From: Mesorhizobium loti R88b
GTDB lineage: Bacteria > Pseudomonadota > Alphaproteobacteria > Rhizobiales > Rhizobiaceae
Assembly: GCF_013170845.1 (NCBI RefSeq)
Contig: NZ_CP033367.1
Span: forward strand, 2,481,001 to 2,545,000
Reading direction: 5' to 3'
Length of the DNA: 64,000 nucleotides
Notes under the pieces: model-generated
The model's input: the letters and a program-made list of their open reading frames with translations, nothing else
What the model was told of the DNA's origin: nothing
Databases searched by the model: none
Shown here: positions 6,616 through 30,110 of the stretch, one piece after another
Position numbering within the stretch: position 1 is the stretch's first letter
Layout: each line of letters begins with the position of its first letter
Translations under genes and position numbers: made by a program

Positions 6616-9600
6616 GGCCTGGCGTCCGCGCCATGTCCGCGAGGAAGATTGGGGCGGTCGGGAAGATCGGGGGTACGTGGCAGGTTGGGCTCGATGCCTC
6701 GCAAGCGGGCGGCAAGGCGGTCGAACCAGAGATAGATGACCGGCGTGGTGAATAGTGTCAGCAACTGGCTGAGCAGCAAGCCGCCGACAATGGAGACGCC
6801 CAAGGGATGGCGCAGTTCCGAGCCGACGCCGGTGCCCAGCGTCAGCGGCAAGGCACCCAGCATCGCCGCCAGTGTCGTCATCAGGATCGGGCGGAAGCGC
6901 AGCAGGCAGGCCTGGTAGATGGCCTCGCGCGGTGTCTTGCCTTCATGGCGCTGCGCGTCGAGCGCGAAGTCGATCATCATGATGGCGTTCTTCTTGACCA
7001 CGCCGATCAACAGGATGATGCCGATGATCGAGATGATGGTCAGGTCCTGGCCGGCGATCATCAGCGCCAGCAGCGCGCCGATGCCAGCCGAAGGCAGCGT
7101 CGACAGGATGGTGATCGGGTGGATGAAGCTCTCATAGAGCACGCCGAGCACGATGTAGACCGTCACCACCGCCGCCAGGATCAGGAACAGCGTGTTGTCG
7201 AGCGAAGCCTGGAAGGCGCGCGCCGCACCCTGGAAGCTGGTGATGATGCTGAGCGGCATGCCGATGTCAGCCTGCGCGTGGTCGATCGCGGTGACCGCTT
7301 CGCCGAGCGACGCGCCGGGCGCCAGGTTGAACGAGACGGTGGTGGCCGGGAATTGACCCATATGGGTGATCTGCAGCGGTGTGGTGGCGATATGGGTGGT
7401 GGCCACCACCGACAGCGGCACCGGCGCGCCGCCCGTCGACGACGGCAGATAGACGGAGGAGAGCGCCTTGAGCGAATCCTGCTCGGACGGGGCGGCCTCG
7501 AGAATGACGCGGTACTGGCTTGATGTGGTGTAGATGGTCGAGACCATGCGCTGGCCGAAAGCATCGTAGAGCGCGTTGTCGACGGTCGCCGGTGTGATGC
7601 CGAAGCGGGCGGCCTGGTCGCGGTCGATGTCGACGAAGACGGCAAGGCCGCTGTTCGACAGGTCGCTGGCGACATCGGCGAGCTGCGGCAGCGTGTTCAA
7701 CTTTGCGAGCAGCTTCGGCGTCCATTCTCCCAGTTCGTCGGCATTGGCGTCCTGGAGCACGAATTGATACTGGGTGCGGCTGACCTGGCCGTCGATGGTC
7801 AAGTCCTGAATCGGCTGCAGGTAGAGCGTGACGCCCGCTACCGAAGCGGCTTCCTGTTTCAGCCGCGCGATGACCTGCGTGATATCGGCGGTGCGCTGTT
7901 CATGCGCCTTGAGGTTGATCAGGATGCGGCCGACATTCATCGTGGTGTTGGTGCCGTCGACGCCGATGAAGGACGACAGGCTGTCGACATCGGGATCCCT
8001 GAGGATGATGGCGGCCAACTGCTGCTGGCGGTCGGCCATGGCGGCATAGGAGATCGACTGCGGCGCCTCTGATATGGCCTGGATGACGCCGGTGTCCTGC
8101 ACCGGGAAGAACCCCTTGGGGATGACCACGTAGAGCGCCGCCGTCAGCACCAGCGTCGCCGCCGCGACTACGAGCATCAGCGTCTGCCGGTCGAGCACCC
8201 AGGTCAGCGCCCGGCCGTAACCCCGGATCACCCAGTCGAAGAAGTCGCGGCTGGCGCGCTGCAAGGCGTTCTCGCGCACCGCCGCCATCGGTTTGAGCAG
8301 CTTGGCGCAGGCCATCGGCACCAGCGTCAGCGACACCACGGCCGAAATCAGGATGGTGGTGGCCAGCGTGATGGAGAATTCCCGGAACAAGCGGCCGACG
8401 ACATCGCCCATGAACAAAAGCGGGATCAGCACCGCGATCAGCGACACGGTCAGCGAGATGATGGTGAAGCCGATCTGCTGCGACCCTTTCAGCGCCGCTT
8501 CAAGCGGTGTCGCGCCTTCCTCGACATAGCGCGCGACGTTCTCGATGACGACGATGGCGTCATCGACGACGAAGCCGGTGGCGATGGTCAGCGCCATCAG
8601 CGACAGATTGTCGAGGCTGAAGCCGAACAGATACATGACGCCAAGCGTGCCGACCAGCGACAGGGGAACCGAGAGGCTCGGGATCAGCGTGGCGCGCGCG
8701 CTGCGCAGGAAGACGAAGATGACCAGCACGACCAGGATGATCGACAGCGTCAGCTCATATTCGACGTCGCGCACCGAAGCGCGGATGGTCGTGGTGCGGT
8801 CGGTCAGCACCTTGACGTCGACGGCGTTCGGCAGCGAGGCCTGGAGCTGCGGCAGCAGCGCCTTTATGCGGTCGACCACGTCGATCACGTTGGCGCCGGG
8901 CTGACGCTGGATGTTGAGGATGATCGCCGGCGTGCTGTTCATCCAGGCCGCCAGCCGGTTGTTCTCGGTGGCGTCGATCACGTCGGCCACATCGCTCAGC
9001 CGCACCGGCGCGCCATCCTTATAGGCGACGATCAGCGAACGGTACTCGTCGGCGCTCTTCAACTGGTCGTTGGCGTTGATGGTGTAGGCGCGCGACGGTC
9101 CGTCGAAATTGCCCTTTGGCGTGTTGACGTTGGCGCTGCCCAAGGTGGTGCGCAGATCATCGAGGTTGAGACCGTAGGCGGCGAGCTTGCGCGGGTCGGC
9201 CTGGACGCGCACCGCGGGGCGCTGGCCACCGCTGAGGCTGACCAGGCCGACGCCCGGCAGCTGCGATATCTTCTGCGCCAGCCTGGTGTCGGCAAGCTGC
9301 TGCACGTCGCGCAGCGGCATCGTCGCCGAGGTCAGGCCGAGCGTCAGCACCGGCGCGTCGGCCGGGTTGACCTTGGCGTAGATCGGCGGCGCCGGCAGGT
9401 CGGCCGGCAGCAGATTGCCGGCTGCGTTGATGGCGGCCTGCACCTCCTGTTCGGCGACATCAAGCGAGATCGCCAAGCTGAACTGCAGCGTGATGACCGA
9501 GGACCCGGCCGAACTCACAGAGTTCATCTGGTTGAGGTTGGCGATCTGGCCGAGCTGGACCTCCAAGGGCGCTGTGACCGAGGACGTCATGACGTCCGGG

Positions 9601-15071: not shown

Positions 15072-15983
15072 ATGAAAAATGCGGACGAGGCTCGGGAGAG
15101 CGGCGTTTCCCGAGGCGTCGATCGGACAGCCCGATATGTACTGGACATCATTCCAGAAAGTGCAGGTCCCAGACGCGCCACGGCGCGCGGCAGCATCATC
15201 CATTCCATCCGCAGTCCCGGGTCGCAGAAATTCCTGGCCAAGGAACATTCGGCGGGAATTGTGCTGAGACCGGGACGCAAATTCAGGGCCTCGCTCGGCA
15301 GCGACAGGATCACCGAATACGATGCGCCGGTCGGATGCCTCATCATCAATCCCGCAGGCGTCGACAGCACCTTCGCCTGGTCCGAGACGAGGGAAAACGC
15401 CGTCGTCTCCATATCGCCGGAAGCGCTATCGGAACTGGCGGCTCATGAGTCCGATATCGTCAACACAGAGTTCGAGCCGCCTGCGTTCGGCACGGTCGAC
15501 CTGAGGGCCCTCAACATAGCCCAGATGATCACCGCCGAGCTGACCGGGACGCTGCCTCCAAACGAGCTTTATCTGGATTCGCTGCTGACGGTGTTCGGCG
15601 TGCATCTGCTGCGCACCTACACGAGCCGCAGCAGGCAGGCCGTGTTGCCCAAAGGCGGGCTCTCCGCCGTTGGCGCTCGGCGCGTGCGCGAATATCTCGA
15701 CGAGAACTTCGTGCGAAAAGTCATGGTCGCTGAACTGGCTTCCGTCGCGGGGGTTTCCCCCAATCATTTCATCGCAAGGTTCGCCAGGACGTTCGGGATG
15801 CCGCCGCATCGCTATCTGATCAATCTGCGCCTTGACTTGGCGGAAAAGCTGCTCGTCGACGGCGAACTCGCAATTGCCGAAGTCGCCTACCTCGCCGGGT
15901 TTTCGGATCAGAGCCATCTGGCCGCGACCATAAAGAAGTACAGAGGACGGACGCCGACCTTCTATGCTCCAGTCAAGACCTGA
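15072..15983 (+). CDS. AraC family transcriptional regulator
   Basis: 303 residues. The N-terminal ~190 residues form a sensor part without a recognised domain; the C-terminal ~100 are a double helix-turn-helix of AraC type (V-A-E-L-A-S-V-A-G-V-S-P-N-H-F-I-A-R-F then I-A-E-V-A-Y-L-A-G-F-S-D-Q-S-H-L). GAGG precedes the ATG at suitable spacing. It is followed on the same strand by a second, shorter AraC-type gene and then by the adhesin operon, so control of surface genes is a reasonable inference. The ligand is unknown. Confidence 0.9.
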   Translation: MKNADEARESGVSRGVDRTARYVLDIIPESAGPRRATARGSIIHSIRSPGSQKFLAKEHSAGIVLRPGRKFRASLGSDRITEYDAPVGCLIINPAGVDSTFAWSETRENAVVSISPEALSELAAHESDIVNTEFEPPAFGTVDLRALNIAQMITAELTGTLPPNELYLDSLLTVFGVHLLRTYTSRSRQAVLPKGGLSAVGARRVREYLDENFVRKVMVAELASVAGVSPNHFIARFARTFGMPPHRYLINLRLDLAEKLLVDGELAIAEVAYLAGFSDQSHLAATIKKYRGRTPTFYAPVKT

Positions 15984-16163: not shown

Positions 16164-16583
16164 ATGCAGTGCGCGGAAATCAATAGCTTTGCTTCAAGGG
16201 CCGAAGCGGCGATGCGACAACCGACGCTGAACGTGAAAGGCGGGCTTTCCGCCCGCAGCGCCCACAAAGTGCAGGACTTCCTCGAAGAGAACTTCACGCG
16301 CAAGCTGGCGCTTGCCGAGATGGCTGCGGTTTGCGCGCTTTCGCCCTATCACTTCGTGCGGGCCTTCTCCCGGACGTTCGGGGTGCCGCCGCATCAATAT
16401 GTCCTCGATCTGCGGCTGGACTTCGCCGAGAGACTGCTTGCTGAAAGCCGCATGACGATCGCGGATATCGCCAATCTGGCCGGGTTTTCAAGCCAGAGCC
16501 ATTTTACCACTGTTATGAAGAAATACCGGCAGGTGACGCCTTTACAGGCGCGGGTGGGCAAGCTTAACTTGAAGATTAGATGA
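16164..16583 (+). CDS. Short AraC-type regulator (DNA-binding domain only)
   Basis: 139 residues (123 if started at the internal ATG 16212). It contains only the AraC double helix-turn-helix (L-A-E-M-A-A-V-C-A-L-S-P-Y-H-F-V-R-A-F; I-A-D-I-A-N-L-A-G-F-S-S-Q-S-H-F), closely similar to the C-terminus of the 303-residue regulator 180 bp upstream, including the shared G-L-S-A lead-in. No sensor domain. Either a partial duplication that lost its N-terminal domain or a genuine one-domain regulator. The ribosome site is weak for both starts. It directly precedes the adhesin gene. Confidence 0.8.
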   Translation: MQCAEINSFASRAEAAMRQPTLNVKGGLSARSAHKVQDFLEENFTRKLALAEMAAVCALSPYHFVRAFSRTFGVPPHQYVLDLRLDFAERLLAESRMTIADIANLAGFSSQSHFTTVMKKYRQVTPLQARVGKLNLKIR

Positions 16584-16779
16584 AGCGGCGCTTGCCGCAT
16601 TGTTTGATTACTTGGTCTTAAAGCGACGGCTAAGGTAACGAGCCGTTAACCTCCGTCGAGTTGCTCCGTTCTTTTCTCGCGACACAGCAATTTCCTGAAA
16701 TACTGCAGGCAAGAATCGTGTCTTCCTGCTGTGGATCGGAATTGTCAGACATTTCGTGCCGGCCAGCGGAGAGGGAACC

Positions 16780-19700
16780 ATGACCGACAATCGCAATTCG
16801 AGTGGCTCGTTTGTTCGGCGTCGCGCGGCGCATTTCGCCGGGCAGTGGATCGCGGGGGCCGATCATGGCTCTCGCTCGATGCGCCGTCGCCTGATGGCGA
16901 TCCTGCGCATGGCGCATCGGGTGCTCGGCATGCGCCGCAAGGGATCTGGGCTCGGCATGCTCGGCATCGGCAGGGTTCTGGCAGCGGCGCTTGGTACGAT
17001 CGCACTCGGAGGCATCGCCACGCCGGCGCTGGCGCAGTATGCGGCCGGTGGCGGAACGGCAAACACCGCCGGTTCGGTGGCGGTCGGTCCGTCCGCTACT
17101 ACGAATGGACTGCGGGGTGTCGCGATTGGCTCTGGAGCAACTCAGGCCGGAATCGATTCGATTGCCCAAGGCACCAATGCCAGCGCCGGTAGCCAGAATG
17201 CAGTCGCGATCGGGTTTGGAACGATCGCCTCCGCGTTAAACTCCATCTATCTTGGCTCGCGCACTGTCGCCGGGACCGGTGCCACTGCCGCGAGCGCCAT
17301 CGGCATCGGTACGGATGTCACGGCATCCCAGGTCGACGCCATCGCGGTAGGACGTTCATCCGTTGCGTCGGCACAATACTCGGTGGCTCTCGGCCTGAAC
17401 GCGAAAGCCACGGGCGCAGGCGGCGCGATGGCGCTGGGCCAAGGCACCGTCTCAAGCAGCACCAATTCGGTCGCGCTCGGCGTTCAGGCGCAAGCCACCA
17501 GTGGCGGCGCCAACGCCTTGGGCACCTTCTCTGTTGCTTCGGGAGGGAACTCCACCGCGCTCGGCACCAGCTCCACGGCTAGCGCCGCCCTTGCGACAGC
17601 CGCAGGCTGGGGATCTGTCGCCAGTGGCGTTAATTCGTTCGCCGGCGGACAGCAGGCGGCTGCGTCAGGACAAAGCGCGACGGCGCTTGGAAGTACCTCC
17701 AACGCATCAGGCAACTTCGCTCTGGCTTTGGGTAATGGAGCCGTGTCGAGTGGGGTGGGTTCGGTCGCGGCGGGCTCGGGAGCACAGGCCACGGATGTAT
17801 CGGCCACGGCGGTCGGCAATAACGCCACGGCGACCGCCGCGAACGCAAGCGCGCTGGGACTGGGCGCCACGGCGAGTGCCATAAACAGCACAGCCGTTGG
17901 CAGGCAGACCAAGGCCAGTGGAACAGGCAGTACCGCACTCGGTATCGGTTCCAACGCCAGTGCTGCCAACGCCGTGGCGATCGGCAATACGGCAGTCGCG
18001 GATTCCACCGACGCCGTCGCCATGGGCACCAATGCTGTGGCGACCGGCGGCAAGGCCGTCTCGATCGGCTCCGGCAACACCGCTTTTGGCGACGGCGCGG
18101 TCTCGATCGGCGATCCCAGCTATGCCAGCGGCACCGGCGCCTTCACCGGCGGCGCCAACAACATCGCCAACAGCGACGGCACGGCGACCGCTACGGCTGC
18201 CAACATGGCCAACGGCGCCGTCGCCATCGGCAACAACAACAAGGCGATCGGGCAAGGCTCCGTGGCGCTGGGCAACGGCTCTACCGCGGGTGCCGCCGGT
18301 CTTGCCGGCAACGTCGCGCTGGGCAATGGCGCGACGGCGGCGGCGAGTTCCGGCGACGTGGCGCTCGGCTCGGGCTCGGTGACTACTGCAGCGGTCGGCA
18401 CGGCCAGCGCTGTGGTCAACGGCACGACCTATGCTTTCCAGGGCACCAATCCGACCTCGACGGTCAGCATCGGCGCGCCCGGCGCGGAACGCACGCTTAC
18501 CAATCTGGCGGCAGGGCGGATCAGCTCGACGTCGACCGATGCAATCAACGGCTCGCAGCTCGCCGCCACCAACCAGGCGGTCGACGCCATAGGCACGACG
18601 CTCAACACCATCAACACCGGCGGCGGCATCAAGTATTTCCACGCCAACTCGACGCTGGCGGATTCGTCGGCGACGGGTACGGACTCGGTCGCCATCGGAC
18701 CTGTCGCCACCGCAACCGGGACGAACGCCATCGCGGCCGGTACCAATTCGAGTGCCTCAGGCATCAGCGCCTCGGCCATCGGCAATGGCGCCATTGCATC
18801 GAACCTCAACGCAACGGCGTTGGGCTACATATCCAAGGCCTCAGGTCAATACAGCACCGCAATCGGCGCCAACGCCAACGCAACAGCCACGTCCAGCACG
18901 GCGATCGGCCAGAACGCGTCTGCAGCCGGTGTTCAAGCGACCGCTCTCGGCGTGGGAGCGAATGCCGGCGCCCAGAATGCGATCGCGCTGGGTGCCCTTT
19001 CCACCGCCGGCAACGCAGGCGATGTGGCGCTGGGCTCGGGCTCGGTGACCGCCGTCGCGGTCGGCACGCCCAATGCGGTGATCAACGGCACGACCTACGC
19101 CTTCCAGGGCACCAATCCGACCTCGACAGTCAGCATCGGCGCGGTCGGCGCCGAGCGTACGCTCACGAACCTAGCCGCGGGGCGGATCAGCGGCTCCTCG
19201 ACAGATGCGATCAACGGCTCGCAGCTCTTCGCCACCAACCAGGCGGTCGATGCCATTGGTGCCACGCTCAACAACATCAATGTCGGCGGCGGCATAAAAT
19301 ATTTCCACGCCAACTCGACGGCTGCGGATTCGTCGGCGACGGGTACGGACTCCGTCGCCATCGGACCCGTCGCGACCGCAACCGGGACGAACGCCATCGC
19401 GGCCGGCACCAATTCGAGCGCCTCCGGCGTCAGCGCCTCGGCCATCGGCAACGGCGCCGTCGCATCGAGCCTCAACGCAACGGCATTTGGATACATAGCC
19501 AAGGCCTCAGGCCAATTCAGCACCGCCGTCGGACCCAATGCCAATGCTTCAGCCACCTCCAGCACGGCGATTGGCCAGAACGCGTCTGCAGCCGGTGTTC
19601 AAGCGACCGCTCTCGGTGTAGGAGCGAATGCCGGCGCCCAGAATGCGCTCGCTCTGGGCGCCCTCGCCAACGCCGGCAACGCCGGCGACGTGGCGCTGGG

Positions 19701-22017
19701 CTCGGGCTCGGTGACCGCCGTTGCGGTCGGCACGCCCAATGCGGTGATCAACGGCACGACCTATGCCTTCCAGGGCACCGCCCCGGCCTCGACGGTGAGC
19801 GTCGGCGCGGTCGGCGCGGAACGCACCATCACCAACGTCGCCGCGGGGCGGATCAGCGGCTCCTCGACGGACGCGATCAACGGCTCGCAGCTCTTCGCCA
19901 CCAACCAGGCGGTCGACGCCATCGGCACCACGCTCAACACCATCGGCAGTTCCGTCACCAATCTCGGCAACACGATCAGCAACATCGCCGGCGATACCTC
20001 GACCGCCTATACCGACGCCAATGGCGTGGGCATCCGCTACGCCCGCACCAACGAGACCGGACTGGCGCAGACCGATTCCTTCGCGCAAGGGGTCGGCTCC
20101 AGCGCCGTCGGCTACCAGGCGACCGCGACCGGCGTCAGCGGGCTGGCGCTCGGCCGCGACAGTGCGGCCAGCATCGATGGCAGTGTGGCGCTCGGTTCGG
20201 ATTCGGTGTCCGATCGCGCCCTGGCGCCAGCTACCGGCCAGATCGCGGCCGGTCCCTCGAACTTCATCCAGTATAACACCACCGACAAGACGCTGCTCGG
20301 CGCGGTTTCGGTCGGCACCGCCACATCCTACCGCCAGATCACCAATGTCGCCGACGGCACGCAGGCGCAGGACGCGGTGACGGTCCGCCAGCTGCAGGGA
20401 GCGATCGCCTCGGTCTCGGTGACGTCGACCAAGTATTTCCATGCCAATTCGGCGGCCGGCGACTCGCTCGCGGTCGGTGCGGAATCGGTCGCGGTCGGTC
20501 CGACGACGGTCGTCAACGGCGACAATGGCGTCGGCATCGGCAATGGCGCCATTGTCGACCAGACTGCGCCCGGCGGCACGGCCATTGGCCAGAACGCGCA
20601 TGTCATGCTGGCCGACGGCCTGGCGCTCGGCACCAATTCGCTGGCGTCCGGCATCCAGTCGGTGGCGCTCGGCGCCGGCGCTCAAAGCACCTTTATCAAC
20701 AGCGTCGCGCTGGGCGCTCAGTCCATCACCTCGGTCGGCGCTCAGACCGGCTATACGGCTTTTGGCCTCACTGCTCCGCAGACCTCGGTCGGCGAGGTGT
20801 CGATCGGCGCAGCCGGGGCCGAACGCAAGCTCACCAACGTCGCGGCGGGTTCGGCCGAAACCGATGCCGTCAACGTCTCGCAGTTGCGCGGCGTGTCGCA
20901 AAACGTCGCCAATCTGTTCGGCGGCAACACCACGGTCAATCCGGACGGCTCGATCACCGGACCGACCTACACCGTCCAGGGCAACACCTACACGACTGTC
21001 TATGACGGGCTGACCGCGGTCGACAATGCGCTCACCAACATCAGCAATGGCGGCGGCATCAAGTATTTCCATGCCAATTCGACGCTGGCCGACTCCACCG
21101 CGAGCGGCACCGACAGCGTGGCGATCGGGCCGGCCAGCGTGGCGAGCGGCACCAACAGCCTCGCCGCCGGCAATGGCTCGACTGCCACGGGCCAAGGCGC
21201 GGTGGCGCTCGGCCAGGGCGCCAAGGCCAACAACGCTAACGATGTGGCGCTGGGTTCGGGCTCGGTGACGCAGACCGCGGTCGGCACGTCCAGCACCGTC
21301 ATCAACGGCAAGACCTACACCTTTGCCGGGACCACTCCGATCGGAACCGTCAGCGTGGGTGCTGCCGGCGCCGAGCGGACGATCACCAATGTCGCCGCCG
21401 GACAGGTCAACGCCAACAGCACCGATGCGATAAACGGCTCGCAGCTCTACGCCACCAACACGGCGGTCGAGGATTTGAAATCGGGCCTCGGATCGCTCAC
21501 CCAGAACGCGGTGACGTATGACACCAATCCGGACGGCAGCAAGAAGAACAGCATCACGCTGCAGGGCGGCGACGTCAACGCGCCGGTCGTCATCTCCAAT
21601 GTCGGTCCCGGCGTTGCCGGCACCGATGCGGTCAACGTCAACCAGCTGAACCAGGGGCTGGCCACGAGCATCAACACGTCCAACACCTATACCGACAAGG
21701 TGGCGGCCACGACCTTGCAACAGGCCAATAACTATACCGACCAGAAGCTCAGCCAGCTCAATACGGACCTGGGCGGCATACGCGACGAAGCACGGCAAGC
21801 GGCAGCGATTGGGCTCGCCGCCGCCTCGCTGCGCTACGATGACCGTCCCGGCAAGCTGAGCGTTGCGGCGGGTGGCGGCTTCTGGCGGGATTCCAGCGCC
21901 TTGGCCTTCGGCGCCGGCTACACCAGCGAGGACGGCCGCATCCGCGGCAATGTGTCGGGCACGGCGGCGGGTGGGCATGTCGGCGTCGGTGCCGGCATCA
22001 GCTTCACCTTGAACTGA
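16780..22017 (+). CDS. Trimeric autotransporter adhesin (YadA-like)
   Basis: 1745 residues; a surface adhesin predicted to form a trimer that anchors itself in the outer membrane (type Vc secretion). A long basic N-terminal extension precedes a signal peptide cleaved near residue 85 (A-T-P-A-L-A). Then come many YadA head repeats of the S-x-A-x-G and A-I-G-x-x-A type, several neck/stalk connectors (D-A-I-N-G-S-Q-L; G-I-K-Y-F-H-A-N-S), and a C-terminal ~75-residue membrane anchor (A-A-A-I-G-L-A-A-A-S-L-R-Y to G-I-S-F-T-L-N). ATG 16780 has GAGAGGG 4 nt upstream; a GTG 24 bp earlier is less likely. DNA 18361-19950 is tandemly repeated (666-bp unit). It heads a run of exported-protein genes. Confidence 0.95.
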   Translation: MTDNRNSSGSFVRRRAAHFAGQWIAGADHGSRSMRRRLMAILRMAHRVLGMRRKGSGLGMLGIGRVLAAALGTIALGGIATPALAQYAAGGGTANTAGSVAVGPSATTNGLRGVAIGSGATQAGIDSIAQGTNASAGSQNAVAIGFGTIASALNSIYLGSRTVAGTGATAASAIGIGTDVTASQVDAIAVGRSSVASAQYSVALGLNAKATGAGGAMALGQGTVSSSTNSVALGVQAQATSGGANALGTFSVASGGNSTALGTSSTASAALATAAGWGSVASGVNSFAGGQQAAASGQSATALGSTSNASGNFALALGNGAVSSGVGSVAAGSGAQATDVSATAVGNNATATAANASALGLGATASAINSTAVGRQTKASGTGSTALGIGSNASAANAVAIGNTAVADSTDAVAMGTNAVATGGKAVSIGSGNTAFGDGAVSIGDPSYASGTGAFTGGANNIANSDGTATATAANMANGAVAIGNNNKAIGQGSVALGNGSTAGAAGLAGNVALGNGATAAASSGDVALGSGSVTTAAVGTASAVVNGTTYAFQGTNPTSTVSIGAPGAERTLTNLAAGRISSTSTDAINGSQLAATNQAVDAIGTTLNTINTGGGIKYFHANSTLADSSATGTDSVAIGPVATATGTNAIAAGTNSSASGISASAIGNGAIASNLNATALGYISKASGQYSTAIGANANATATSSTAIGQNASAAGVQATALGVGANAGAQNAIALGALSTAGNAGDVALGSGSVTAVAVGTPNAVINGTTYAFQGTNPTSTVSIGAVGAERTLTNLAAGRISGSSTDAINGSQLFATNQAVDAIGATLNNINVGGGIKYFHANSTAADSSATGTDSVAIGPVATATGTNAIAAGTNSSASGVSASAIGNGAVASSLNATAFGYIAKASGQFSTAVGPNANASATSSTAIGQNASAAGVQATALGVGANAGAQNALALGALANAGNAGDVALGSGSVTAVAVGTPNAVINGTTYAFQGTAPASTVSVGAVGAERTITNVAAGRISGSSTDAINGSQLFATNQAVDAIGTTLNTIGSSVTNLGNTISNIAGDTSTAYTDANGVGIRYARTNETGLAQTDSFAQGVGSSAVGYQATATGVSGLALGRDSAASIDGSVALGSDSVSDRALAPATGQIAAGPSNFIQYNTTDKTLLGAVSVGTATSYRQITNVADGTQAQDAVTVRQLQGAIASVSVTSTKYFHANSAAGDSLAVGAESVAVGPTTVVNGDNGVGIGNGAIVDQTAPGGTAIGQNAHVMLADGLALGTNSLASGIQSVALGAGAQSTFINSVALGAQSITSVGAQTGYTAFGLTAPQTSVGEVSIGAAGAERKLTNVAAGSAETDAVNVSQLRGVSQNVANLFGGNTTVNPDGSITGPTYTVQGNTYTTVYDGLTAVDNALTNISNGGGIKYFHANSTLADSTASGTDSVAIGPASVASGTNSLAAGNGSTATGQGAVALGQGAKANNANDVALGSGSVTQTAVGTSSTVINGKTYTFAGTTPIGTVSVGAAGAERTITNVAAGQVNANSTDAINGSQLYATNTAVEDLKSGLGSLTQNAVTYDTNPDGSKKNSITLQGGDVNAPVVISNVGPGVAGTDAVNVNQLNQGLATSINTSNTYTDKVAATTLQQANNYTDQKLSQLNTDLGGIRDEARQAAAIGLAAASLRYDDRPGKLSVAAGGGFWRDSSALAFGAGYTSEDGRIRGNVSGTAAGGHVGVGAGISFTLN
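18361..19950 (+). repeat. Tandem 666-bp repeats inside the adhesin gene
   Basis: Two full in-frame units of 666 bp (222 codons), 18361-19026 and 19027-19692, and a partial third to about 19950. Each unit starts at A-L-G-S-G-S-V-T and runs through D-A-I-N-G-S-Q-L and Y-F-H-A-N-S to N-A-G-D-V. The copies are nearly identical at DNA level, apart from scattered third-position and a few amino-acid changes. A diverged further copy of the neck module begins near 21247. Confidence 0.9.
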
Positions 22018-24473: not shown

Positions 24474-24947
24474 ATGACCGCAGCCTCGCCCCTTCAGGAA
24501 CGCATCCGCAATCAGCTTCGCAAGATCAAAGCCGCTGCCGAAACCATCCGTCCGCGCAAGGGCTTCATGACGAAAGAGGAACTGCCCACGCTCAAGATCG
24601 GCGAGGCGCTGGTCTCGGTCATCGGCGATGACAATGTGCCGACAGAGGTCGAAAAAGTGTTGGTGATCATGCCGACCGCGCAGGTCGGATCGATTTCGAT
24701 TGAAGAGCGCCAGCTCGTGCTCGAGTCGACGCCCTTGCGGAAGAAATACCACGCCGGCATGGCGGAGCACATCGCCGGCCGGGCGTTCAACCGCCGCATG
24801 ATGGAGGCGAGGGGGATAGACCCTGGACTGGAAGGCGAGGCGATCGTGCCCGAGCCGAACCTCTACCTGAAGCACGTCCCGACGATCGACATCAGCCGGG
24901 AGCCCGCCCCGGGCGCGGCGCGCCGGCTGGCGGGGATCGCAGCTTGA
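24474..24947 (+). CDS. Conserved-looking cytoplasmic protein, unknown
   Basis: 157 residues, no signal peptide or membrane helix, mostly helical and charged, with a central beta-rich part (about 40-75) and a basic helix (K-Y-H-A-G-M-A-E-H...N-R-R-M-M-E-A-R-G). Codon use fits the neighbours. No good ribosome site precedes the ATG. It is the last plus-strand gene before the AT-richer block. Not recognised. Confidence 0.55.
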   Translation: MTAASPLQERIRNQLRKIKAAAETIRPRKGFMTKEELPTLKIGEALVSVIGDDNVPTEVEKVLVIMPTAQVGSISIEERQLVLESTPLRKKYHAGMAEHIAGRAFNRRMMEARGIDPGLEGEAIVPEPNLYLKHVPTIDISREPAPGAARRLAGIAA

Positions 24948-25001: not shown

Positions 25002-25250
25002 TCAGGGATTCTGGGGCTTGGGGTCGGACGAGAATTGCACTGCGCCGCCGCCGGCATTTCCGATTTGAACCAGGTCTTCAGTTCTTCGCGTCGCCATGCC
25101 TCTAAGCAGAACGCGCGCTCCGCCCTGCCTCGCGGCGGATGCAATCTGTATCAGGTCGGAGGTCGTACGTGTTGCTGCGTCCAAGACGAAGCCTCCTCCC
25201 GCCGCTGCGATTTGCATCAGGTCACCGGTCGTTCGCGTCTCAAAAGACAT
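25002..25250 (-). CDS. 82-residue three-repeat protein (TRT-x-DL-x-QI repeats)
   Basis: The protein is almost entirely three imperfect repeats of about 22-27 residues: T-R-T-T-G-D-L-M-Q-I-A-A-A-G-G-G, T-R-T-T-S-D-L-I-Q-I-A-S-A-A-R, T-R-R-T-E-D-L-V-Q-I-G-N-A-G-G-G. Each has a short helix (DLxQIAxA), a Gly turn and a beta-like strand (F-V-L-D-A, R-V-L-L-R-G, A-V-Q-F), so a small alpha/beta solenoid is likely. The ATG at 25250 is one base after the stop of the ATPase gene, so translation is coupled. Function unknown; the tight link suggests it is a partner or regulator of the ATPase. Confidence 0.8.
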   Translation of the reverse strand: MSFETRTTGDLMQIAAAGGGFVLDAATRTTSDLIQIASAARQGGARVLLRGMATRRTEDLVQIGNAGGGAVQFSSDPKPQNP

Positions 25251-25251
25251 T

Positions 25252-26619
25252 TCATTCTCTTTCTTTGCGGATAACGATTGTCTCGATCTCAACAGCGATC
25301 CTTTGTTCGTCTCGCCTGGCATCGAACAAAAGGCCTTGTCCCGTCGATTTAACAGGGGCGAGGTCTGTAAGCTTGTTCGATGCGCGCAGGAAAAACAGAA
25401 AGTAGGGGTCCGTGATAGTTAGTGCATCGCCATCCCAAGATATCGGACTGCTGCCGGGTTCGCCAGCGGCTGCAATCGCCTGCATCTGTTCGAGCGCCGA
25501 CGTGATGCTCGAACCTACCGGCGGCTCGGTCAGGCAAACTTCACGTACCCTGGTGAGAATCTTGTCGTAGGGGAGGGCAAGTTCGGCTGGGTCCTTTGCG
25601 ATTGCCAACAAAATCGCCCGGTAGACGTCCCCCTTTGAGCCGTCGTTAAAGTCGTGCTCTTTTCGCTCGGTGCCCCTGGTTCTCGGTCCGGTATGCAGCG
25701 CGGTGAGCATGGTTGAAAAGTCGGTCAGAGACGAGGTGCGTAGCATTGTCTCTTCGAGGAGTGTCTCCCCGACCTCTACCCGTTCTAGTTCCGCCATGGC
25801 CTCCCTCACGTCGATCTCAAAGCCAAGGTTGAGGCAGATCGCTTGCATCAGTTGCGGTGAGCCGAACGCCTCGGCTGCTAGCTGGCGTTCCACTCTTGGC
25901 GCCAACTCGACGTTGAGTGCTGCGAACCCCTTTCGAGCAATCTGCTGCAATTCGCTCGGCGTCCAATAGGCCAGATCGACCGCCGCGACGCGCCCGCGAA
26001 GCTCCGGGTTGCTGCGAACAACATCGTCCGCGCGGTGCGGCACTGAAGCGGTTACAATCCGGACCCCGTTTTCAGCTGCGGCCTTAATCTGCCGCCCTAT
26101 TTCGTCCCTGTAGGCTTGGTCGATGTAATGAAAATCGTCGATAAAGACTGCGAAGCTGCTGCCGGCTATTTCTTTGATCACCTGCTGCAGACCGTTTCGA
26201 GAGTAGGATTTCGAAGTCTCCCCACCCCAGCCGCGCGACCCTGCAAACTCGGCCTGGGCACCACCCTCGGCCACGAATGGTACCTTAAGTTTTCCCCCAG
26301 CGTTTACCGATCCTGAAATCTCGTTGGACGTGCTATCAGACACGGTGGTTTCTGAGGGCGAGCCCATCCAACCTAAAACCTTTTCCCAAAGATCGTCGGG
26401 CGACGTGATGGTGGCGCCATTGACGGAGATCAGCTCATGTTCTGGAATGACCTTCTTCACCAAGACCGTTTTGCCGGATTTGGACGGTCCTGACACAGAA
26501 ATGACCATGTTCGGAGTGGCAAAATAGTCGCGGAGTTTCTGCTCCAACTTGTGGTCGGCGCGATCAACATAAGTGATCGTTGGAATGTCGTTTGGCGTGA
26601 AGACCTGCTGAATTTTCAT
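25252..26619 (-). CDS. P-loop ATPase of STAND/AAA type, possible conflict-system sensor
   Basis: 455 residues. Walker A G-P-S-K-S-G-K-T (44-51), Walker B F-A-V-F-I-D-D-F (about 157-163), a sensor-like I-V-T-A-S-V-P and a helical lid (about 220-280, with the G-S-P-Q-L-M-Q-A motif typical of Cdc6/STAND ATPases). The C-terminal ~180 residues are helical and probably winged-helix. Between Walker A and B lies a Gly/Ser/Ala-rich, strand-like insert (about 88-140). ATG 26619 is preferred to a TTG 33 bp upstream. No effector domain (nuclease, TIR, protease) is visible, so output may depend on the coupled 82-residue protein. Lower GC than neighbours. Confidence 0.82.
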   Translation of the reverse strand: MKIQQVFTPNDIPTITYVDRADHKLEQKLRDYFATPNMVISVSGPSKSGKTVLVKKVIPEHELISVNGATITSPDDLWEKVLGWMGSPSETTVSDSTSNEISGSVNAGGKLKVPFVAEGGAQAEFAGSRGWGGETSKSYSRNGLQQVIKEIAGSSFAVFIDDFHYIDQAYRDEIGRQIKAAAENGVRIVTASVPHRADDVVRSNPELRGRVAAVDLAYWTPSELQQIARKGFAALNVELAPRVERQLAAEAFGSPQLMQAICLNLGFEIDVREAMAELERVEVGETLLEETMLRTSSLTDFSTMLTALHTGPRTRGTERKEHDFNDGSKGDVYRAILLAIAKDPAELALPYDKILTRVREVCLTEPPVGSSITSALEQMQAIAAAGEPGSSPISWDGDALTITDPYFLFFLRASNKLTDLAPVKSTGQGLLFDARRDEQRIAVEIETIVIRKERE

Positions 26620-26885: not shown

Positions 26886-27551
26886 CTAGATGGTGGTTTG
26901 AGCCGTGGGAGGATGGTTCGCGGGAGGCTTATCCCATCCGAAGATCTCAATCGATGTTTTCGTCAGCCTTAGTCCTAGCCCAACTCCGATAGCCACAACA
27001 CCAACCGCATTGAAGTAGCTAAGATCATCTGGCATCCCCGAAATGGCGAGTCTGAGAACTCCCAACGCGGATACGGTTAGATAGATGTAGTCAATGCACT
27101 TTACCCACGCCTTTGCGAACCACTCCCCGAAAATTCCTGCGCTGAGATGCGGGCCGGCAAATCGCGCCGCATTGTGAAAGATAGTTGTCCAAGCAATTAT
27201 CGTATAAACCGCCATAAACATCGACCACTTCAGCTCTCGTTGCGGATCAGAAAAATAACTGACCGATATTATTGTAATAAAGACCGGAAATACAATCTGA
27301 AAACTCGACGCCGTCCACGCAGATAACGTCTGGCGGGAATGCAGAGAGTCAGTAACTCTTTGAAACCATAGCGAACAAGTCACGATTAGCAGCGAGACAA
27401 CGGTGACGATGAGCAAGGCGCGGGGTGAAAGTGTCGAATGACGGTAGAGCGTGCCCGAAAGTAAGAGCCCCGCGGCGAACATACCCATAAGGAGCTCAAA
27501 CGCCGTTACGACAAGGTGACCCACCACCCGTAGAAGATTGCCATTTTGCAT
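26886..27551 (-). CDS. Six-helix membrane protein, unknown
   Basis: 221 residues with about six hydrophobic helices (approximate residues 8-34, 45-66, 75-104, 115-138, 150-172, 180-203) and a Pro/Thr-rich cytoplasmic tail. ATG 27551 has AAGGGAA at proper spacing; the longer reading to 27674 lacks one. The family is not recognised. It lies in the AT-richer accessory block, 266 bp upstream of the ATPase gene on the same strand. The 233-bp gap 26653-26885 holds no gene I can support. Confidence 0.68.
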   Translation of the reverse strand: MQNGNLLRVVGHLVVTAFELLMGMFAAGLLLSGTLYRHSTLSPRALLIVTVVSLLIVTCSLWFQRVTDSLHSRQTLSAWTASSFQIVFPVFITIISVSYFSDPQRELKWSMFMAVYTIIAWTTIFHNAARFAGPHLSAGIFGEWFAKAWVKCIDYIYLTVSALGVLRLAISGMPDDLSYFNAVGVVAIGVGLGLRLTKTSIEIFGWDKPPANHPPTAQTTI

Positions 27552-27859
27552 GCGCGTTCCCTTCTGCCGAGTTGTGTTTTCCAGCGGAAGAAACGAAAGT
27601 GTCAAGTAGGCCGTTTTCGCACCGTTCGCGAAGGCCCCAGCGCGTTTGAGGTCATTGCCGAGGCTATGGATCACCGTGACGACAATCTTGGCGACTGAAG
27701 GTATCTATTGCCGTAGGCGCGGTGCTCGAAGCAAAACCAGTGCGAGTCCGTTCGGGGCCGTAGGATCTCAGGAACGCTGAGCGGGCCAAGATCGGGGATC
27801 CGATGGGAAACCGGGCAATCTGGAAATACAAGTGAGAGCAGCTATCCAGTTCAAGTCAA

Positions 27860-28228
27860 CTACCACAGCCATTTTATAGCTGTAGTCATTGCCAGGAAGC
27901 ACATGATCCACAGGATAACGGGTCCTGCGGCACCTTTGAACTTAAATCCAAACCCTTCAAATTCGATTGGCCCGGCTGCTTGGCGCAGCACGGCAATGAT
28001 GGCAAACGAAGCAATGGCAGCAGCAGGCAGGCCAATGATCACATCAAATTTTGTTTCGATGAGGCGAGAAAGCTGAGGCGCGGACCCCACCGCAAAATCC
28101 GTCAAGTCTTTTCCGAACAAAGAGAGGACTACGAAAGCCGGAACGACAACCAAAACAACCGGTAAAGCTAACCACCACTTAGATGACTGCCCCTCAGTCG
28201 GATTTGGGTCGTCGATGCCATCCTGCAT
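27860..28228 (-). CDS. Small three-helix membrane protein, unknown
   Basis: 122 residues: a hydrophilic N-terminus, helices at about 19-39, 60-82 and 98-117, and a motif E-F-E-G-F-G-F-K-F-K-G-A-A-G-P between helices 2 and 3. The ATG at 28228 has a very strong GGAGGGGG site; a GTG 18 bp earlier is unlikely. The family has no function I know. The following intergenic stretch 27552-27859 (308 bp) shows no further gene. Confidence 0.68.
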   Translation of the reverse strand: MQDGIDDPNPTEGQSSKWWLALPVVLVVVPAFVVLSLFGKDLTDFAVGSAPQLSRLIETKFDVIIGLPAAAIASFAIIAVLRQAAGPIEFEGFGFKFKGAAGPVILWIMCFLAMTTAIKWLW

Positions 28229-28266
28229 AGTTTTCCCCCTCCCCACAGTGAAGTATCAATAGAGCA

Positions 28267-30096: not shown

Positions 30097-30110
30097 TGGT
30101 AGCGGGAGAG
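30097..30110 (+). repeat. 14-bp direct copy of the tRNA-Met 3' end (candidate attachment site)
   Basis: TGGTAGCGGGAGAG here is identical, in the same orientation, to 37511-37524, the 3' end (acceptor stem plus CCA) of the tRNA-Met gene. Such direct repeats mark integration at tRNA genes. The same bases also form half of a hairpin (GGTAGCG / CGCTACC), next to another inverted repeat (ACTACTT / AAGTAGT, 30070-30097). The rest of 29950-30270 holds no gene. Confidence 0.45.

Follow-up and report, generated by a model that had tools for sequence, protein, structure and literature searches.

We describe here two adjacent genes of Mesorhizobium loti R88b, which encode a P-loop ATPase and a small triple-repeat protein and lie in a stretch of 64,000 nucleotides (contig NZ_CP033367.1, positions 2,481,001 to 2,545,000; called the window below) of a 7.2 Mb genome in a single contig. 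We will argue that the ATPase belongs, by its sequence, to a candidate defence family, that a fast-evolving insert in its ATPase domain looks like its effector, and that the repeat protein comes from a separate mobile-element family. The features of the two genes are the following, with positions counted from the first letter of the window.

25252..26619, minus strand: STAND/Orc1-Cdc6-like AAA+ ATPase by predicted fold, 455 residues (ATG at 26619, TGA at 25254-25252)
26467..26490, minus strand: Walker A, GPSKSGKT, residues 44-51, from the sequence
26197..26361, minus strand: Gly/Ser/Thr-rich insert, residues 87-141, flanked by the predicted helices 74-85 and 143-151, with a predicted local distance difference test (pLDDT) score below 50
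26236..26322, minus strand: proposed transmembrane β-hairpin, residues 100-128, made of two alternating strands (101-113 and 118-128) and a hydrophobic turn (113-117)
26134..26154, minus strand: Walker B, FAVFIDD, residues 156-162, from the sequence
25381..25626, minus strand: winged-helix-like C-terminal part, approximately residues 332-413, named from the model secondary structure and the fold alignment
25002..25250, minus strand: triple-repeat protein of 82 residues, family phrog_27431 (ATG at 25250, stop at 25002)

A single base separates the TGA of the ATPase gene from the ATG of the repeat gene, as an initial annotation of this DNA had stated, and the coordinates are borne out in the sequence.

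The ATPase and its insert

The PADLOC profile PDC-S59 (PDLC05049) matches residues 2-292 of the ATPase with an E-value of 5.6e-37 and 125.8 bits, over profile positions 4-288 of 428. The S in this name stands for a single gene, and the library entry states no cut-off, description or mechanism. PADLOC genes of this kind go by the name 'phage defence candidate' (PDC) in PMC11514479. On the strength of the profile match, the ATPase is a member of this candidate defence family, and its protection against phages is putative. At least 1742 homologues were found at E<=0.001 among 7998 scored sequences, the close ones being named Mesorhizobium.

The structural class is assigned on the basis of fold comparison, not of Pfam. 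Residues 5-413 align to PABY2304 (2qen) and residues 1-425 to Cdc6/Orc1 chains, with the ATPase core, the lid and the winged-helix-like C terminus all present, and the nearest folds include the DNA-handling Cdc6/Orc, RuvB and RFC proteins. According to the model, the protein is thus a STAND/Orc1-Cdc6-like AAA+ ATPase. The initial annotation had described it as a STAND/Cdc6-like ATPase and a candidate conflict protein, with which both the family match and the fold agree.

For the sequence comparisons we aligned 197 ATPases, namely 121 proteins (our own and 120 listed of the 1742), 52 genome loci and 24 viral loci; these 76 loci were taken from 96, of which 20 were left out for a stop codon in the match or a length below 380 codons. 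The Walker A pattern is kept in 197/197, and for Walker B a loose pattern is found in all 197 and D[DE][FI]H in 195. Both motifs, and also the Gly/Ser-rich insert between them, had been noted before, and the insert too is present in every aligned homologue. It is located just before Walker B, inside the ATPase domain, and its length is nearly constant: the stretch 84-146 comprises 59-64 residues in 197/197 and exactly 63 in 139. The insert is at the same time fast-evolving, with an identity of 0.20 vs 0.45 for the rest of the protein among 66 non-redundant members.

What is conserved is a pattern of alternation. According to the column means, residues 101, 103 ... 113 of the first strand are nonpolar and 102 ... 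112 polar, and in the second strand 118, 120 ... 128 are polar and 119 ... 127 nonpolar. On one face, charged residues account for 1.8% and 1.2% in the two strands, and on the opposite face for 31.6% and 45.1%. In each strand the lowest nonpolar column lies above the highest polar one, a separation without parallel in any 13-residue window beyond the insert region. In permutation tests the alternation has p values of 9.5e-4 (first strand) and 1.7e-3 (second strand), where the strand limits were chosen post hoc and the shuffles ignore relatedness. For 98% of the 66 members the β moment is above the mean of the shuffles (mean z 1.53; z>1.64 in 45%), and the α moment is not (mean z -0.49). A simple hairpin score of at least 22 out of 24 is reached by 169/197 ATPases vs 50/1249 other open reading frames (ORFs); the top background rows include the barrel-forming C-terminal end of a YadA-like adhesin in the window, and also plain Gly-rich stretches. 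By these measures the insert carries the pattern of an amphipathic hairpin, two alternating strands joined by a turn.

Two other readings of this segment have to be considered. The insert could be a soluble hairpin of the helix-2-insert type, located in the channel of a ring and gripping DNA or protein, in which case the ATPase would be a motor or a loader and there would be no pore. Other AAA+ clades do carry hairpins just before Walker B, which is where this insert is found, flanked by its two predicted helices, and the DNA-handling nearest folds fit the same reading. However, some 30 alternating residues with one nearly uncharged face and a high content of Gly, Ser, Thr and Ala suit a lipid-facing hairpin better, as do the hydrophobic turn and the very low conservation, and a DNA-binding hairpin would be expected to keep basic residues. 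We consider the soluble hairpin unlikely. Alternatively, the segment, being β-prone, of low complexity and fast-evolving, could drive an amyloid-like or β-stacking assembly instead of a membrane pore. Amyloid signalling motifs keep a conserved core motif, though, and the insert has none of that kind; the near-constant length and the presence of alternating residues to either side of a central turn favour a single hairpin. Of all the explanations treated here, we regard β-stacking as the least probable.

The insert is best read, from its sequence pattern, as a candidate effector of the protein, a putative membrane β-hairpin. The statement of the initial annotation that the ATPase has 'no visible effector domain' is probably wrong, since the insert resembles an amphipathic membrane β-hairpin.

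Pore formers, mobile context and a possible mechanism

We compared the insert with known β pore formers by means of a profile (A10) made from 47 of the 66 non-redundant inserts, 19 irregular or gappy ones having been dropped by eye before the Pfam and PDB searches. ETX_MTX2 (PF03318) is the most frequent Pfam family, matched by 12/47 inserts at E<=1 with a best value of 5.2e-4, and it is followed by DUF6414 with 7 matches. When the columns were permuted within odd and even positions, ETX_MTX2 was matched by 0/47 inserts and only six unrelated single matches appeared. In the PDB (177635 sequences) the insert profile gave 12 sequences at E<=10, of which seven, from five different proteins, are β-barrel pore formers, as we take them to be; the best two are insecticidal proteins with E-values of 0.027 and 0.22. 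The permuted profile listed no PDB sequence.

The reversed insert profile, on the other hand, listed 18 PDB sequences, 16 of them β pore formers from two proteins (best E 0.014): a binary-toxin pore component accounts for 15, and the insecticidal protein 7ml9 for the remaining one. In most full-length sequences the binary-toxin component is matched at chain positions 289-332, its membrane-insertion loop. The permuted control consists of one alignment, and the reversed profile was compared with the PDB. Since the reversed inserts still match β pore formers, the signal reflects the type of hairpin and not common descent, and from these sequence comparisons convergence with the ETX_MTX2 hairpin appears as likely as homology. 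The ATPase is not, on its sequence, classed as an ETX_MTX2 protein.

The gene is found in patches. Counting the genome of M. loti R88b itself, the ATPase occurs in 5/146 genomes of the genus and in 6/297 of the family, and in a sample of the class the counts are 3/385 for the ATPase and 1/385 for the repeat protein. Among the genus matches, two are interrupted by an in-frame stop and another one is divided into two parts; broken or partial copies are seen in the Mesorhizobium genomes G768, G789 and G816. Distant relatives occur on plasmids (13 records) and in a phage (one record). Together with the Orc1/Cdc6-like fold, these records would suit a housekeeping protein, or a replication-type protein of plasmids and phages, without any function in defence. 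The patchy distribution speaks against this explanation, as do the location in an accessory block (see below) and the occurrence on viral contigs of IMG/VR, and we find it improbable.

The viral neighbours were taken from 27/28 IMG/VR loci (one fragment left out), with 93/95 ORFs scanned; the ORFs left out of this and the following scan were very long ones and those of one duplicated contig. Among the matches listed are neck, tail-terminator and baseplate genes, with 6-8 ORFs per family, and in several loci the ATPase lies on the strand opposite to the phage genes. This placement is as expected of prophage cargo. In seven loci (L107, L110-L113, L118 and L120) the ATPase stands on the opposite strand among tail and baseplate genes of what are apparently P2-type prophages, a position that is perhaps used repeatedly for cargo. 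For the genomic neighbours, 219/227 listed ORFs were scanned, the families noted being 25 of the 240 and 140 matched. The models among the matches listed include MADS, PD-T4-6, Mokosh, AriA, PglW, type I/II restriction and PD-Lambda-1, and in Pfam there are many ordinary metabolic families too.

We now turn to what the ATPase might do. That it is a single-gene NLR-like anti-phage protein, with the insert as its effector, is a reading to which we give about even credence. More specifically, and more tentatively, we propose that the PDC-S59 family consists of resistosomes that carry their own pore: a single hairpin would be grafted into the AAA+ core, and the hairpins of adjacent ring subunits would together form an ATP-gated β-barrel by which the membrane of an infected bacterium is breached; here our confidence is slightly less than even. 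In the resting monomer, the hairpin would be tucked away. An infection signal would then lead to nucleotide exchange and ring assembly, with every subunit contributing one hairpin. Next, the hairpins would zip together into a β-barrel through the inner membrane, and the infected cell would leak, and die or stall. The fold class, the Walker motifs, the hairpin pattern with its specificity and the mobile context were computed; oligomerisation, membrane insertion, the trigger and the role in defence are what we infer.

It has to be stressed that a number of points weigh against this proposal, which is computational throughout. In the AlphaFold monomer the insert is disordered, with pLDDT block means of 21-34 at residues 91-140, and the alternation fits a soluble hairpin on the protein surface as well. 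The E-values of the best Pfam and PDB matches are weak, the whole ATPase has no match to PF03318 at E<=1, and the reversed inserts match pore formers at least as strongly as the forward ones. No curated Pfam family reaches its gathering score on the whole ATPase (the best, AAA_22, has 19.2 bits with a cut-off of 27). The defence models among the genomic neighbours constitute a raw listing, and those for kinases, HTH domains and ATPases are generic. Finally, in the distant relatives that were compared at 27-31% identity (4 of the 14 records), the insert is not always there. The Selenomonas plasmid copy (27% identity) has 19 residues vs 63 here, and thus no insert, and shorter inserts are found in two relatives from Bacillota, a Clostridioides phage copy (37 residues) and a Paenibacillus copy (42 residues); the Pseudarthrobacter plasmid copy has 64 residues at this stretch. 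The hairpin is therefore constant in the aligned PDC-S59-like set, not in the wider ATPase family. The neighbourhood of the Selenomonas ATPase without the hairpin (L148:1477-2613) includes a Fic gene, an MqsA-type antitoxin, a second AAA ATPase and a methyltransferase, and this ATPase is possibly a variant with another effector.

The repeat protein and the accessory block

The repeat protein matches phrog_27431 with an E-value of 2e-23 (residues 3-73, profile positions 2-74 of 75), and 1072 relatives were found at E<=0.01 among 7995 scored. A model based on 126 sequences (mean pLDDT 88.1) consists of three helix-strand units, the first formed by helix 8-16 and strand 21-24, the second by helix 30-43 and strand 47-50, and the third by helix 57-67 and strand 71-73. 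The three repeats that had been read from the sequence are thus not due to chance, given these relatives and this model. In the PDB, the top-scoring sequence is that of a leucine-rich-repeat (LRR) protein, with an E-value of 0.0019.

The units vary together. At an R/Q helix position they agree in 90% of 126 proteins vs 61-62% expected (z ~9), and at the most variable helix position in 56-57% of 125 proteins vs 13-14% expected (z ~15), with shuffles of the alignment (A9) that ignore relatedness; one helix position, for example, has Q, R, Y or N across all units. Identical residues have identical codons in 105/260 cases within genes and 933/3045 between genes (12 genes), and recent DNA duplication therefore does not account for this pattern. 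Ladder-like packing or repeated contact with one partner would explain the co-variation.

As judged from its sequence relatives, the protein is a member of a large family of small proteins of prophages and plasmids. The gene is found beside a Zot-like gene (named by eye) in two contigs of filamentous-phage type (L095 and L096), and with terminase-like genes nearby, also by eye, in L134 and L136. In L095 it occurs twice (326-745 and 7773-8222), in an apparent tandem filamentous prophage. Plasmid matches amount to 17 records in all, Vitreoscilla and Paraburkholderia plasmids included. On ColRNAI plasmids, in one Klebsiella and one Enterobacter record, the repeat forms the C-terminal third of a DnaD-N/HTH_36 replication-type protein. 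These fusion genes (L125:653-1330 and L127:1136-1813) lie on tiny plasmids where a MazE-like antitoxin adjoins, and MazF too on L127.

The initial annotation had taken the ATPase and the repeat protein for one candidate conflict system, and in a more specific form of this idea the repeat protein would be an LRR-like sensor acting in trans. The spacing of one base, the three helix-strand units and the LRR match are in its favour. However, the repeat profile (126 sequences) has no match at E<0.01 in any of 109 ATPase loci outside the window, and the ATPase profile none in 11 other distinct repeat loci; the 109 loci include overlapping and fragmentary ones and ones that break off shortly downstream of the ATPase, and they exclude the contigs of the three nearest ATPases, P0003-P0005 (75-92% identity). 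The census of gene neighbourhoods thus finds the repeat protein mostly without the ATPase, which the annotation itself had named as the outcome that would count against a pair. In the genus the ATPase is found in 5/146 genomes vs 1/146 for the repeat protein, the present genome being counted in both, and the ORFs downstream of 69 genomic ATPase loci contain, by eye, no recurrent partner. The coupling is therefore local to the present locus, and we rate a two-gene system as quite unlikely. The repeat protein instead belongs to a separate mobile-element family recruited here, and the available evidence weakly suggests that it is most likely a binding partner, tuning or sensing for this one ATPase.

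Further along the same strand, upstream of the ATPase gene, are found:

26886-28246, minus strand: two membrane-protein-like ORFs, named by eye, of 262 residues (weak DUF2569) and 128 residues
28996..30045, minus strand: Abi-alpha gene (Pfam Abi_alpha, E 3e-16), right edge of the accessory block

The two membrane-protein-like ORFs stand between the ATPase and Abi-alpha genes and have no match to a defence family at E<=1. An ORF of 175 residues, also upstream of the ATPase, has no family match. Abi-alpha is a neighbour, and its membership in one system with the ATPase is putative.

Six 1-kb windows at 25-31 kb have a G+C content of 0.52-0.58, vs 0.63-0.68 in the eight that precede them and 0.59-0.66 in the eight that follow; values of 0.55 recur in single windows at 42 and 52 kb. 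Three Mesorhizobium relatives, picked for a good match of the right flank (the right-flank query matched 58/61 genomes), align at 91-94% rightwards from window position 30097 (two) or 30150 (one), and left of this start no aligned piece above 150 bases was found in the 12.6-15.6 kb compared, nor was the left edge of the block. The ATPase, repeat and Abi-alpha genes therefore lie in an accessory block of lower G+C, and the AT-richer accessory block with Abi-alpha of the earlier description is upheld by the G+C content, the break in synteny and the Pfam match.

Beside the block, an ORF of 157 residues (24474-24947, plus strand) matches part of HerA_C (Pfam E 2.1e-13, positions 330-422 of the 502 in the profile) and is perhaps a gene remnant. 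The YadA-like trimeric autotransporter adhesin, named by eye, has 1753 residues (16756-22017, plus strand), and two AraC-type regulator ORFs, also named by eye (15072-15983 and 16164-16583), are found a few hundred bases from it.

Relation to known systems

We know of no effector for the PDC-S59 family, and its name is absent from the literature searched. STAND and other conflict ATPases are treated in PMC12839542 and PMC7159879, where 'aerolysin' occurs in neither main text. A CARD-NLR-like system is the subject of PMC13236601, whose abstract is silent on the PDC-S59 family, and PMC12547243 deals with gasdermins in general.

The ATPase core, lid and winged-helix-like C terminus are shared with PABY2304 (2qen), Cdc6 (1fnn), CED-4 and the NLR resistosomes. 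The NLR-type pores known so far are made of helices from an N-terminal domain, whereas the present ATPase has a β-hairpin-like segment in the ATPase domain itself and no separate effector domain is seen. The membrane hairpin of aerolysin and ETX_MTX2 proteins resembles the insert, as the weak Pfam matches and the 7/12 PDB sequences indicate; the protein as a whole, however, differs from them, and the reversed inserts match another pore-former family. Bacterial gasdermins bring about suicide by a β-barrel pore in an immune setting, and they are protease-activated and are not known to contain an ATPase. In the PDC-S59 ATPase, by contrast, a single polypeptide would combine the pore with the nucleotide switch. 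As regards phrog_27431, its members are elsewhere standalone on prophage-like contigs and plasmids or fused to DnaD-N/HTH_36, whereas here the gene is coupled to the ATPase; a large family of three-unit mini-solenoids with co-varying units is a clear target for structure-function work.

PDC-S59, with its at least 1742 relatives, thus gains a concrete and testable candidate mechanism. If this mechanism is true, β-barrel pores reach beyond gasdermins and secreted toxins, in that a STAND switch can drive a pore directly, and inserts in ATPase cores would be places to seek hidden effectors in 'effector-less' STAND proteins. An NLR-type nucleotide switch and a β-barrel pore would then be united in one small protein of bacteria and prophages.
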